From positions 1 to 48,319 of the forward strand of contig JAQVMB010000011.1 in the NCBI GenBank assembly GCA_028703835.1: a stretch of 48,319 nucleotides of DNA, given 5' to 3'. This DNA is from Candidatus Peribacteraceae bacterium. Its GTDB lineage: Bacteria > Patescibacteriota > Gracilibacteria > Peribacterales > Peribacteraceae. Positions 12,413 through 16,794 of this stretch are shown one piece after another (the stretch's first letter is position 1; each line of letters starts with the position of its first letter). Below the pieces are notes generated by a model, which saw only the letters and a list, made by a program, of their open reading frames with translations, made no database searches and was not told where the DNA came from. The translations under genes were made by a program, and so were the position numbers.

Positions 12413-15106
12413 ATGCCCAAGGCACAGAAAGAAGTTCTGCTGAGGATCAGGCCGTCTCTCCCCGATCCGGATGAATCGAGTGCGGCGCGCGGTCCGCTCA
12501 TGATGGAATCGGTCCTTTCCGCCATCCATTCCATTCGCAAGGGCTACGGCCCCGTCTCCTTTGAAGTGGCGACCTGCGAAGGGAAAATTGCCCTGTACGT
12601 CCGTTCCAGCGAACGGGCGGCGGCACTGGTGGAGAGCCAGCTCTATGCGCAGTACCCGGATGCGGAAATCGAACAGATCCCTTCGCAGACCCTGGATGCG
12701 CGGGAAGGGGAGAAGGTCTTCTCGAGCGAGCTCGTCCTGACGGGACCGGAAGTGTATCCCATCAAGCGTTATCCCCAGTTCATCGACCTCGCCTCGCGCC
12801 AGCACGTCGACACCATCGCCGGCATCACGTCGGCGCTGGTCCGCTACAAAGGCCCCATGCGCGGACATGTCCAGTTCGTGCTCCAGCCCGTCGGCCCGCG
12901 TTACCGTCGCCGCGCGTTGGCGTTCATCCCGTTCCTGCGGCGAGGATTGCCCAAGCATTCACCGGTCTACGCCGTTTTCTTCTCGAAAATCCATTTGGCC
13001 AAGGGTTGGCGTCGGTGGGCGCTCTTCCCCCTCGATATGCTCCTGGGGGGATGGCGCACGTGGTTCTCACGTCCCACATTGTCATTCATGTCCGGGGCGG
13101 AGGAGTCCACGGACGATCCCGACGAGGAGGCGCGCGCGGGGATGCGCACCCATGACCGCGAGGATCCGGAGACCGCGGCTGTGGACAAGGTGAACCGTCT
13201 TCTCTTCCTCTCCACGATCCGCGTCAGCGTCGTCGCCCGCGTGGCGGAAACGGCCGCAGCGGAAGCGAAGGTGGAGGAAATCGCTTCCAGCTTCCGCCAG
13301 TTCACCCTGCCGCAGTGCAACGGCTTCGCTCCGCGTCCGGTCCGCGTTCTCTCCGCGCTTCCGAGCGGCCTTGCCGCGCGTCCGTTCGTCCTCTCGGTGG
13401 AGGAGGCGGCCACGCTCTGGCACGTGCCGAACATCCTCGTGAAGACGCCCAACTTCGACTGGGTTGTGAGCAAGAAGCTGGAACCGCCCGTCGACCTGCC
13501 CGTCGTCTCGGAAGCGGAGCCGGACCTGACGGTCCTCGGAGAGGCCGTGTTCCGCGCCGAGCGCCAGAAATTCGGCATCCGCACCGACGACCGCCGCCGG
13601 CACATGTACATCATCGGAAAGACGGGCATGGGCAAATCGACGCTCCTGGAGAACATGATCTTCTCGGATATCCATGCCGGGAAAGGCGTGGCGGTCATCG
13701 ATCCGCACGGCGACCTCGTGGAGGCGACGCTGCGTTTCATTCCCGCCAGCCGCAGCAACGATGTCATCCTCTTCGATCCCTGCGACCGCGAGTTCCCGGT
13801 GTCGTTCAACATGCTCAACTGCCCGGATCCCGCGCAGCAGGAGCTCGTCGCGTCCGGCCTGATGAGCATCTTCAAGAAGCTCTGGCCGGAGGCCTTCTCC
13901 GGGCGCATGGAGTACATCCTCCGCAATGCTCTCTTGGCGCTCATCGAAGCGGAAAACAATTCCATGCTGGGCATCATGCGGATCTTCGTGGACGACGCAT
14001 TCCGCGGGAAGATCCTGGAGCACGTGAAGAACCATCTCGTGAAGAGTTTCTGGGAGGACGAGTACACGGGATGGTCGGACAAGTACCGCACGGAAGCCAT
14101 CGCGGCCATCCAGAACAAGATCGGGCAGTTGCTCTCCGCCCCCCTCATCCGCAACATCGTGGGGCAAGTGCAGTCGAAGGTGGATATCCGCCACGCGATG
14201 GACACGGGGAAGATCATCCTGATGAACCTGAGCAAGGGGAAGCTGGGGGAGGATAACAGCGCGTTCCTGGGCTCCATGATGGTCACGAAGTTCCAGTTGG
14301 ACGCCATGAGCCGCGCGGACGTACCCGAGAAGGAGCGCAAGGACTTCTACCTGTACGTCGATGAATTCCAGAACTTCGCGACCGAATCCTTCGCCACGAT
14401 CCTCTCGGAGGCGCGGAAGTACCGCCTCAACCTGACGATGGCGAACCAGTATGTGAACCAGCTCATCATCGGGGACAAGAGCACGCAGCTGCGGGACGCC
14501 GTCTTCGGCAACGTGGGGTCGCTCACGTGCTTCCAGGTGGGCTCCGACGACGCGGAGCCGCTCTCCGAGCAGTTTGAGGAGATGGTCCTGCCCAAGGACA
14601 TCCTCAGCCTTCCCAAGTACCACGCGTACATGCGCCTGATGGTCCAGGGCATCCCGAGCAAGCCGTTTTCCGTGAGTACCCTGCCGCCCCCCGTTTTCGA
14701 GCAGGACGCGAAGCGCGTGGAGATCATCCGCAAGCTCTCCCGGGAGCGTTATGCCGAGCGGGTGACGGCGGTGGAGGACAAAATAACCAAGTGGATCGCG
14801 AGCGGCCGTACGGCGCAGAAAGGTGCGAAGGTGAATGAGAAGGCGAAGGAAAAGGAGGAGGAAGAGCTGAAGAAAGCCAAGAAGAAGGGGATGACGCTGG
14901 AGCAGTACCGCGCTTGGCGGGACCGGGAATTGTGCGTCAACGAATTCAACGCATTGCGGAAGAAGGAGTTCCTCGGGGAAACATTGACCGTGTCGGAAAA
15001 GGAGTCGATGGAACGGTTCCGCAGGCAATTGGAAGCCACGGGGGGTGTGCCGCCTCCGAGCAAGACGTTGCTCCAGGCGAAGGAGGCTGCCGTCAAGAAA
15101 GCCTGA
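12413..15106 (+). CDS. TraG/VirD4-family conjugation-type ATPase with long N-terminal region
   Basis: The 897-aa protein has an N-terminal region of about 390 residues with no motif I can name. An FtsK/TraG-type ATPase core follows: Walker A IGKTGMGKSTLLENM near 402, VAVIDPHGDLVEA, and Walker B FYLYVDEFQNF near 645. A C-terminal charged coiled coil rich in Lys and Glu (about 790-880) ends it. VirD4-class proteins couple DNA to type IV secretion, and this variant (DUF87/TraM-recognition type) is common in CPR genomes, where its role is unclear. There is no obvious transmembrane anchor and no neighbouring type IV secretion genes, so DNA transfer, DNA uptake or a pilus-linked role all remain open. 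Confidence 0.82.
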   Translation: MPKAQKEVLLRIRPSLPDPDESSAARGPLMMESVLSAIHSIRKGYGPVSFEVATCEGKIALYVRSSERAAALVESQLYAQYPDAEIEQIPSQTLDAREGEKVFSSELVLTGPEVYPIKRYPQFIDLASRQHVDTIAGITSALVRYKGPMRGHVQFVLQPVGPRYRRRALAFIPFLRRGLPKHSPVYAVFFSKIHLAKGWRRWALFPLDMLLGGWRTWFSRPTLSFMSGAEESTDDPDEEARAGMRTHDREDPETAAVDKVNRLLFLSTIRVSVVARVAETAAAEAKVEEIASSFRQFTLPQCNGFAPRPVRVLSALPSGLAARPFVLSVEEAATLWHVPNILVKTPNFDWVVSKKLEPPVDLPVVSEAEPDLTVLGEAVFRAERQKFGIRTDDRRRHMYIIGKTGMGKSTLLENMIFSDIHAGKGVAVIDPHGDLVEATLRFIPASRSNDVILFDPCDREFPVSFNMLNCPDPAQQELVASGLMSIFKKLWPEAFSGRMEYILRNALLALIEAENNSMLGIMRIFVDDAFRGKILEHVKNHLVKSFWEDEYTGWSDKYRTEAIAAIQNKIGQLLSAPLIRNIVGQVQSKVDIRHAMDTGKIILMNLSKGKLGEDNSAFLGSMMVTKFQLDAMSRADVPEKERKDFYLYVDEFQNFATESFATILSEARKYRLNLTMANQYVNQLIIGDKSTQLRDAVFGNVGSLTCFQVGSDDAEPLSEQFEEMVLPKDILSLPKYHAYMRLMVQGIPSKPFSVSTLPPPVFEQDAKRVEIIRKLSRERYAERVTAVEDKITKWIASGRTAQKGAKVNEKAKEKEEEELKKAKKKGMTLEQYRAWRDRELCVNEFNALRKKEFLGETLTVSEKESMERFRRQLEATGGVPPPSKTLLQAKEAAVKKA

Positions 15107-15147
15107 AATACGCTCGAAATTTCATGCGGAACGGTTATTCTGGGGGG

Positions 15148-15513
15148 ATGAGGAAAGAGGATGTGCTTCGGACCGTGAGTGAGGCGGATCCTCCGATTCC
15201 GGCGGCGTTCCAATCCCTTCGGTTTACACTGTTGCCGCATTGCAGGGTGGAAGTGGCGGGGGCGTTCATCGCGTCCCGCGCATTCGTGGACTATGTGCGT
15301 CTGCGCCTGGAAAATGCCTTGGCTCATCGTGCGTGCGGTGCATCTATGCATCCCTGTGATTGCGACCTGTTGGAGTCGGAGCTTGCGTGCATCGAAAGGG
15401 ATATATCGGCCCATCTTGGGGATTCTCCCGCCGGTACCGTGTTTCGCCTGCTCATGGCATCCCGCGAGCAGGCGCTTGAGAAAATCCGACGGCTTGTGGA
15501 GAAGGGGTGGTGA
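15148..15513 (+). CDS. Hypothetical protein
   Basis: This 121-aa frame (MRKEDVLRTVSEADPP...) is soluble, has several cysteines and a helical C-terminus (FRLLMASREQALEKIRRLVEKGW). I recognise no family. An in-frame ATG at 15124 would add eight residues; neither start has a Shine-Dalgarno. It lies 41 nt after the TraG-like gene and before the hairpin at 15525, so it could be cotranscribed with it. Confidence 0.5.
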   Translation: MRKEDVLRTVSEADPPIPAAFQSLRFTLLPHCRVEVAGAFIASRAFVDYVRLRLENALAHRACGASMHPCDCDLLESELACIERDISAHLGDSPAGTVFRLLMASREQALEKIRRLVEKGW

Positions 15514-15524
15514 CGGTTCAAAAA

Positions 15525-15550
15525 AAAGACCGAACCTGCGTTCGGTCTTT
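15525..15550. terminator. Bidirectional Rho-independent terminator
   Basis: AAAGACCGAA (15525-15534) and TTCGGTCTTT (15541-15550) form a perfect 10-bp stem with a 6-nt loop. On the minus strand it is followed by a strong T-run (A15520-15524 on plus); on the plus strand the T-tract is weaker. It can end the gene at 15148-15513 and also a transcript arriving from the right. Confidence 0.88.
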
Positions 15551-16130
15551 GTATTTGTGTTTCTCCATCAGCTGAGCAAGCACGAGGCTTCGGAGCGTGA
15601 ATGGAGAGAGGAGGGGAGGAGCCCTCTGTTCTTTGCCCTGCTACGGTTCTTGTTTCTCCTCGCAACCGGACGAGGTCCCCGGACCGGTTCGCCATGAGGT
15701 TCAGAGGAACCAAAGGGAACACTGGGGAGGAAGGGGGGCGTCCGCCATCACATCCTCGGTGACGTCGGGCGACGTTGCAGAGCAGAGAGGGGAACGGCCA
15801 CGAGAGCAAGACGGTCGCTATGCCCAGGATGATGCAAAAGATATTTTGCGATAAGTGGCCGGGAGGAACGTTTGCGGGGCCGTGACCATTCCTCTCTCTG
15901 CTGACGATGGTGGGAAGGAGCGAAAGAAAGTCCTGTTTGTCTGTACTGTGTCTGTTGGCGATCTCTTCATCGGAAGAAATCATGTCATCTTAGGCGTTAC
16001 ATTTTTTTGTGCAAGATTTAGATGTGGTTTAAGCCAATAATTGGTATGCGAATACAAAATGTGCACATGATATGACATCGAAAATTCTTGCGCTGTTTTC
16101 CGTTTTCCTCTTCACGAAAGAGCTTCTTAG
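15551..16130 (-). other. Gene-poor segment; possible minus-strand ncRNA unit
   Basis: No frame here looks like a real protein. On the minus strand, TTGCAC, a 16-nt spacer and TAAGAT (about 15985-16012) form a plausible promoter, and the terminator at 15525-15550 has its stronger T-run on this strand, giving a possible transcript of about 460 nt. Inside it, GAGAGAGGA (near 15890-15898) can pair with TCCTCTCTC (near 15605-15613) and close a domain of about 290 nt. Local hairpins occur too (GCAAAA/TTTTGC near 15835-15850; AACCGG/CCGGTT near 15663-15690). I do not find core motifs of RNase P RNA, tmRNA or SRP RNA. Confidence 0.35.
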
Positions 16131-16223
16131 CTTGTAGCTTGTTAGTTTCTTAGGAACAGGGTATTACCTCCACTCTCGTTCCTTCTCTTTGTACTTCCAA
16201 TCCTAATAAACTAAGAAGCTGAC
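16131..16223. repeat. Inverted AGCTTCTTAG / CTAAGAAGCT word repeat
   Basis: The left arm (16131-16154) has AGCTTCTTAGCTTGTAGC and TTAGTTTCTTAGG. The right arm (16195-16223) has CCTAATAAACTAAGAAGCT. They flank about 40 nt just after the stop of the next minus-strand gene. Confidence 0.75.
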
Positions 16224-16236
16224 CGTCCGGAGTTCA

Positions 16237-16794
16237 CTATTCTGCGTACAGGAAATATTTCATCGTCACTTCCTGCGGGTTTTCCAGGAAGCGAAGGAGT
16301 TCCCCTTTGCCATCAACAGCGACGAACGTGTTGATGTGCGTCACGCCGAAGCGGGACCGCAGTTCCTTTTCCTTGTCGTAGTCCACGTGGTACGCAGGGA
16401 TCACGAACGGGCGGCTTTCTCCCCACTGTCGCAGCATTTTAACCATGTTTTGGCAGCGGGTACTCCAGTCGGAACAGAAGAAGAGGGCGGCAGGCTGCCC
16501 TTTGCCGAGGGAGCCCGCACTGTACGGTTGCAGCGGGAACGTGCCCGTTATTGCCGAAGAAGAGGAGCTGGACACCGAACGCTCGCCGGCTTCGCGCTTC
16601 CGCCATTCCAGGCGCATTTGACGGCGCGTATCGCGGGAGGAGAGCGGAGCTTTCCGCAGGGAGCTGTTGCTGCTGGCGCTGTAGCCCGCTTGCTTCGGGA
16701 TTTCCAATTGGTAGAGATCCGCACGCACGGCGAGAGCCGGAGGTACGGCGGCGGCGAAGAGGAGGGCGGCGGAGAGGAAGGAGGAGGGGCGCAT
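16237..16794 (-). CDS. Exported thioredoxin-like protein
   Basis: The 185-aa protein starts with a signal peptide (SSFLSAALLFAAAVPPALAV), then a low-complexity Ser-rich stretch, then a thioredoxin-like fold: AALFFCSDWSTRCQNMVKML, PAYHVDYDKEKELRSRFGV and HINTFVAVDGKGELLRF. The cysteines are six residues apart rather than in CxxC, so a classical disulfide reductase function is doubtful. ATG 16794 was chosen because it starts the signal peptide; the frame to 16830 adds 12 residues. Confidence 0.65.
   Translation of the reverse strand: MRPSSFLSAALLFAAAVPPALAVRADLYQLEIPKQAGYSASSNSSLRKAPLSSRDTRRQMRLEWRKREAGERSVSSSSSSAITGTFPLQPYSAGSLGKGQPAALFFCSDWSTRCQNMVKMLRQWGESRPFVIPAYHVDYDKEKELRSRFGVTHINTFVAVDGKGELLRFLENPQEVTMKYFLYAE

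Follow-up and report, generated by a model that had tools for sequence, protein, structure and literature searches.

A conserved, pseudoknotted RNA predicted to be a stand-alone gene in Candidatus Peribacteraceae

Known structured RNAs and the Peribacteraceae locus

Among the well-described structured RNAs of bacteria, RNase P RNA and tmRNA have a housekeeping distribution, a similar length to the RNA presented here and pseudoknots, and 6S RNA is a stand-alone RNA with its own promoter. The function of OLE, ROOL and GOLLD is incompletely known, and their families are present in Rfam. These large ornate bacterial RNAs have been described as forming homo-oligomers (PMC12286853). In our window (the whole stretch of 48,319 nucleotides that was analysed), the gap between listed open reading frames (ORFs) covers positions 15514-16236, with a plus-strand ORF ending at 15513 on the left and the stop of a minus-strand ORF at 16237 on the right. 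The segment that the initial annotation called gene-poor is thus an intergenic stretch between listed ORFs, and the RNA of about 460 nt proposed there is now predicted to measure 462 nt (Table 1). The RNA folded better than 100 out of 100 dinucleotide shuffles (z -3.5), and the predicted length across copies ranged from 356 to 667 nt, with a median of 556.5 (46 measured).

When 4227 families of Rfam 15 were searched at gathering score, the window gave only three tRNAs, all elsewhere, and neither the RNA nor 20 homologous loci gave a match (0 matches); the RNA is a previously uncatalogued one. A permissive scan over 14900-16400 returned 10 hits far below gathering scores (best E 0.39). We did not find the RNA among the matches listed in literature searches on noncoding or structured RNAs of Peribacteria, Peregrinibacteria, the Candidate Phyla Radiation and Gracilibacteria, and in PMC11109978 the terms Peribacter, Peregrinibacter and Patescibacteria occur 0 times. 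Like OLE, ROOL and GOLLD, it is a large and highly structured bacterial RNA; unlike them, it has no Rfam match, is shorter, and was found in one bacterial family, without a match in phages, plasmids or viral contigs.

The missing features of RNase P RNA, tmRNA and SRP RNA noted at first inspection agree with the lack of any model match at the locus. With RNase P RNA and tmRNA it shares a housekeeping-like distribution, length and pseudoknots, but both of these are encoded elsewhere in the window's genome, G000: RNase P RNA (RF00010) had its sole match there on contig C35 (167.9 bits) and tmRNA (RF00023) matched on contig C32 (82.2 bits); ARAGORN detected in the window three tRNAs only and no tmRNA. 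The likeness to 6S RNA lies in the stand-alone gene with its own promoter, whereas the architecture differs and a separate, weak 6S match (RF00013, the sole one in G000, 34.3 bits, below the cut-off) was obtained on contig C38, away from the locus. The reading of the RNA as a diverged housekeeping RNA, such as SRP RNA, is therefore opposed by the presence of these three (6S weakly) elsewhere in the genome, and we consider it very improbable. In its favour, both SRP models (RF00169, RF01854) were without a match in all 24 genomes searched at E <= 0.001, and the secF and trigger factor genes adjoin one recurring site of the RNA, a neighbourhood reminiscent of bacterial SRP RNA. However, SRP RNA was also undetected in the nine of these 24 genomes that lie outside the family and do not have this RNA, and since it is missed inside and outside the family alike, its absence does not point to this RNA. 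The same models matched 11/14 and 6/14 control genomes, and the SRP RNA of G000 and its relatives is presumably too divergent for them; a search of the 24 genomes with an SRP signature pattern (up to two mismatches) gave 3 hits, against 5 for a reversed control pattern, and was thus uninformative. Moreover, no SRP-like apical hairpin was recognised by eye in the fold, and each genome with the RNA has between one and three copies of it.

Transcription signals and secondary structure

The minus-strand promoter TTGCAC-N16-TAAGAT proposed in the initial annotation was retained, as its layout occurs above chance: the arrangement TT[GC]NNN-N16-19-TANNNT followed by GATTT was found upstream of 55/65 copies, in comparison to 5/1300 shuffles. 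A simple scan had reported no promoter because TTGCAC matches only three of the six positions of its -35 consensus, and the scan needs four. Further upstream, a palindromic element at a fixed distance was present in 46/58 copies and in 0/1160 shuffles. In this comparison the matrix had been derived from the very sites that it scored, and the copies share common ancestry; their half-sites are complementary at only 4.4 of 7 positions on average. The element of the window copy has three mismatches relative to a perfect palindrome. A perfect GAATACA-N3-TGTATTC was also noticed away from the RNA, at 13617-13633 of locus L156 (G065:C4), between a gene for an EamA-type transporter and a pair resembling AdoMet decarboxylase and deoxyhypusine synthase; this may be another target of the putative regulator. 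At the other end, the hairpin of the terminator is perfect, as first described, with the longer T-run facing the minus strand, and by a loose rule a T-run follows all 65 of the 65 copies having at least 150 nt of sequence.

Table 1. Positions of the predicted RNA, its transcription signals and its structural elements in the window
Feature	Position	Strand	Basis
Predicted ncRNA transcript, 462 nt	15520-15981	-	conserved start GATTT after -10 box to end of terminator T-run
-35 box TTGCAC	16009-16014	-	TTGC in 46/55 matching promoters
-10 box TAAGAT, spacer 16	15987-15992	-	TANNNT, spacer 16 (29) or 17 (26), 55/65 copies
Upstream palindromic element GTGCACATTTTGTATTC (family consensus GAAYACA-N3-TGTATTC)	16050-16066	-	51-55 bp before -35, 46/58 copies
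5′ hairpin GATTTCTTC..GAAGAGATC	15960-15981	-	strands coevolve
Conserved, apparently unpaired 5′ motif, consensus about TCCTTCACACCACCG	15905-15922	-	alignments
Helix A, 5′ strand GCAGAGAGAGGAATGGTCACGG	15880-15901	-	strand-pairing tests
Helix A, 3′ strand, about 20 nt ending CCTCTCT	15784-15803	-	pairing tests; position read from sequence
Conserved core, covariance model R1	15611-15783	-	163.5 bits; window copy among the model's 60 sequences
Helix B, 5′ strand GCTCTGC	15777-15783	-	98.8% of cells paired, two-sided changes in 4/6 pairs
Helix B, 3′ strand GCAGGGC	15635-15641	-	covariation test
Helix C hairpin	15739-15772	-	two-sided changes in 11/11 pairs, 91.6% of cells paired
Helix D, 5′ strand TCCCC	15725-15729	-	100% of cells paired, two-sided changes in 3/5 pairs
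Helix D, 3′ strand GGGGA	15676-15680	-	covariation test
Helix E, 5′ strand GTGTTC	15717-15722	-	two-sided changes in 6/6 pairs, 84.5% of cells paired (weaker)
Helix E, partner GGCGAAC	about 15687-15693	-	
Pseudoknot stem 1, hairpin CCTCGT..GCGAGG	15658-15675	-	94.5% of cells paired
Pseudoknot stem 2, loop strand CGGTT	15664-15668	-	columns 164/181 pair
Pseudoknot stem 2, downstream strand AACCG	15644-15648	-	covariation test
A-rich crossing strand AGAAACAAG, nearly invariant	15649-15657	-	model and alignment
Helix G hairpin GAGGGCTCCTCCCCTC	15611-15626	-	two-sided changes in 5/5 pairs, 94.4% of cells paired
3′ stem-loop region, helix H	15563-15604	-	GGCTCAG/GATAGCC in most relatives, divergent in window copy
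A/C-rich spacer AAACACAAATAC	15551-15562	-	before terminator throughout alignments (not counted)
Intrinsic terminator, 11-bp stem, T8 tail	15520-15550	-	window sequence, alignment

In the fold obtained by sequence comparison, the RNA begins with the 5′ hairpin, continues through an A/C-rich spacer and a conserved CUUCACACCACC-type motif, for which no partner was found, and then carries a variable arm on helix A. Next comes a multibranched core that is closed by helix B; it contains hairpin C, the D/E stem and the H-type pseudoknot, whose crossing strand is A-rich. Hairpin G and hairpin H follow, and another A/C-rich spacer leads to the terminator.

The covariation of the core was examined in an alignment (A2) of 100 loci fitted to R1, a model of 174 positions built from 60 sequences; the alignment comprised 70 distinct rows, leaned towards the model and had the pseudoknot added by hand. 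Two-sided changes were seen in 35/44 pairs and in 457 cells, as compared to 127 in shuffled alignments, and 92.9% of cells were paired, in comparison to 78.3% after shuffling and 41-49% in slid structures, with the caveat that kin sequences may beat shuffles even when unstructured, and that slid versions tend to score below any structure that was drawn from the sequences under test. None of 500 shuffles (0/500) was as high on any covariation measure, and the check for covariation in relatives, on which the proposal of an RNA had been made to depend, was thereby passed.

Pairing outside the core was assessed by tests not tied to R1. For the 5′ hairpin (n=56), the pairing of a copy's own strands was equalled in 0/5000 permutations with the GATTT part and in 4/5000 without it. 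The strands of helix A, tested in the 66/68 copies with enough upstream sequence, paired to an extent reached in 341/3300 shuffled upstream regions, and the inner extension of this helix coevolves (n=64, 0/5000 permutations as good). The inner strands of helix H coevolve as well (n=49, 0/5000); its outer part was marginal (237/5000, n=34) and was rejected.

One element of the first description did not hold, namely a 9-bp pairing of GAGAGAGGA with TCCTCTCTC that would close about 290 nt. The letters are present (15890-15898 and 15604-15612), but the helix is not conserved: a 3′ site like its partner was found within the 25 nt after the core in only 1/68 distinct copies, the window's own site not being counted because it straddles the core end. 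The 290-nt closing helix was therefore rejected; its 5′ strand pairs instead with CCTCTCT at 15784-15790, and the conserved helix A spans about 118 nt in the window copy.

The main rival to a scaffold is a regulatory small RNA, in which the CUUCACACCACC-type motif and the A/C-rich spacers would bind target mRNAs by base-pairing and the core would only stabilise the molecule. We regard this as possible, at odds of roughly one in four. In its favour, the 5′ motif is conserved, two internal partners were tested and unsupported, and the motif could equally be an antisense seed. The observed mean for its pairing with the 3′ GGAGG region (44 copies) was reached by 1748/2000 permutations, and the value for the loop of helix C (52 copies) by 2128/5000; in both tests the position of the motif was set by a pattern and may be incorrect for some copies. 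In a scan with the helix C loop, the 5′ motif was the best upstream site in only 2 of the first 44 copies. A dedicated promoter with an upstream element would also suit such a regulator. However, the CCUU part of the motif is inconstant (CATTCACA variants), and conservation is strongest in two features that would be superfluous in a simple antisense RNA, namely the folded core and the A-rich crossing strand.

In the pseudoknot, the pair of columns 164/181 is UA in 33 rows, CG in 30 and unpaired in 4, and the outermost pair fails in 33/70 rows. The consensus comprises stem 1 (CCTCGN/NCGAGG), stem 2 (NGGTY/RACCN) and an A-rich strand AGAAACAAG of 9-10 bases; loop 1 is about one base long and loop 2 is absent. 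In an H-type layout of this kind, the groove of stem 1 usually accommodates the last strand. This H-type pseudoknot with its A-rich crossing strand, the multibranched core and the nearly invariant bases could also belong to a ribozyme or a ligand-binding RNA, with the pseudoknotted core as the active or sensing site. We find this reading unlikely, as the RNA belongs to no Rfam family at gathering score, and the absence of a co-directed downstream gene in 49 of 50 typed cases indicates that it is not a riboswitch.

That the locus holds no RNA gene, and is either protein-coding or a spacer that is rich in hairpins by chance, is hardly credible. A 219-aa ORF is indeed open on the minus strand of the window (15324-15983), but each of the six frames was open in at most 4/63 copies, so no reading frame is conserved, and the covariation described above is likewise against it. 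With its promoter and terminator, covarying helices and no conserved ORF, the RNA is, as judged by comparative sequence analysis, a gene of its own. The stand-alone minus-strand RNA of the initial annotation is thus supported by conservation, heavy covariation, a conserved promoter, the T-run and the lack of a conserved frame.

Distribution and genomic sites

A BLAST search with positions 15520-16075 (minus strand) found the RNA in all 24 family members among 40 genomes (weakest best E 4.3e-5), several of which carried a second copy; in the 16 genomes outside the family no match surpassed E 0.0018. With R1, the RNA was detected in 71/74 family genomes, passing the proposed check for conservation in relatives, with 109 copies in total: one copy in 35 genomes, two in 34 and three in 2. 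Among family genomes with a completeness of at least 90% and a contamination of at most 5%, it was detected in 56/57. In the rest of the class it was found in 0/279 genomes (class total 71/353, all in the family), and in a sample of the phylum in 16/379, again all in the family; these family, class and phylum scans were run with stricter filters, by which weak matches can be lost. A 25-base pattern from the core, searched over 84,980 genomes, gave 53 stretches, of which 48 carry a Peribacteria, Peregrinibacteria or Peribacter name in their titles; two are titled Patescibacteria group, another two unnamed bacterium, and the remaining one Uhrbacteria. The last of these (L094, JACRJW010000048.1) is a clear copy on a short contig that shared no common gene with the gathered loci at E 1e-8 and one fragment weakly at 1e-3; it may result from mis-binning or transfer. 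The RNA as part of a mobile element was rejected, as positions 15560-15820 had no match in phages or plasmids and the exact core pattern occurred in 0 viral contigs.

The three of 74 family genomes without a match indicate that the RNA may be dispensable or may diverge beyond the model. Genome G069, listed as 100% complete, had no R1 match under the stricter filters and none in locus L176 beside its VirD4-like gene, and is a possible case of loss. In G002, site I (L012/L055, G002:C11, about 55273-55555) has only the 5′ half, with the core missing, and looks like a decayed copy.

Two genomic sites recur. At site I, that of the window copy, glyA lies upstream and is co-directed with the RNA, and the genes for a VirD4/TrwB-like ATPase, hrcA and gyrA are convergent with it; at site II, where the second copy of G000 is located (C12:11329-11504), the secF and trigger factor genes lie upstream and are divergent, and genes for a TPR protein and a PfkB kinase are convergent. 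The VirD4-like, SecF, trigger factor, TPR and PfkB proteins were named by Pfam or NCBIfam, the HrcA match was just under the cut-off, and glyA and gyrA were named by eye. In the window a listed plus-strand ORF (14914-15513) lies between the VirD4-like gene and the terminator of the RNA, and in several genomes a gene without a Pfam match (C14) lies between the RNA and secF. Among 68 distinct copies, site I accounted for 22 and site II for 33; the other 13 lay elsewhere or were untyped. In seven genomes (G003, G021, G041, G050, G070, G071, G073) two copies point towards each other over a distance of about 26-33 kb. The two sites do not hold cleanly separate paralogues, as the site labels need 13 changes on the tree (shuffled mean 29.1, minimum 2), with the bootstrap unsettled.

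The nearest typed downstream gene was convergent in 49/50 copies and co-directed in one (L006), and 18/68 copies had no typed gene within 2.5 kb downstream. The convergent arrangement indicates that the RNA is not a cis-regulatory leader, and its recurrence at two sites whose neighbours are unrelated favours a product that acts in trans. When the surroundings of the VirD4-like gene were scanned with filters off in 10 outgroup loci from other families, no score exceeded 10 bits (E 0.26). Ten family loci at the same gene were chosen for having no copy or a weak one: one was matched (L185, 54.6 bits), one weakly (L183, 17 bits, E 0.0039) and eight were unconvincing. As the outgroups keep the VirD4-like gene without a convincing match to the RNA beside it, the latter seems to have arisen, or to have become recognisable, within the family. 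In five class members (G032, G034, G036, G105, G174), the VirD4-like protein is broken by 4-22 in-frame TGA codons, a pattern compatible with translation of TGA as an amino acid there.

Proposed role in Ca. Peribacteria

The gene, its strand, fold, promoter, terminator and distribution are supported by the comparative data. As the best explanation, at a probability of about 0.55, we propose a stand-alone gene for a trans-acting structured RNA, whose pseudoknotted core would scaffold one or more proteins in a general cellular process of Ca. Peribacteria. The level of the RNA would be set by an activator-type protein bound to the palindrome, which lies about 80 bp before the start, and the pseudoknotted core together with the single-stranded spacers would bind one or more proteins, so that the RNA may act in trans as a ribonucleoprotein. 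The scaffold role is suggested by the architecture. A more novel reading, which we put forward only tentatively, is a lineage-specific ribonucleoprotein or catalytic RNA with a core job in Ca. Peribacteria, retained by almost all genomes at one or both of the recurring sites or elsewhere, and switched via the palindrome by a regulator of its own.

The alignment and the model would ease annotation, searches of metatranscriptomes and probing in the test tube. What emerges is an RNA family with a covarying fold, a pseudoknot, a promoter element and two recurring sites, found throughout an entire family of tiny, uncultured Candidate Phyla bacteria. Its presence in nearly all sampled members, in one to three copies, suggests that it probably performs a basic job: such bacteria have small genomes, and an RNA that they retain in up to three copies is probably of use to them.
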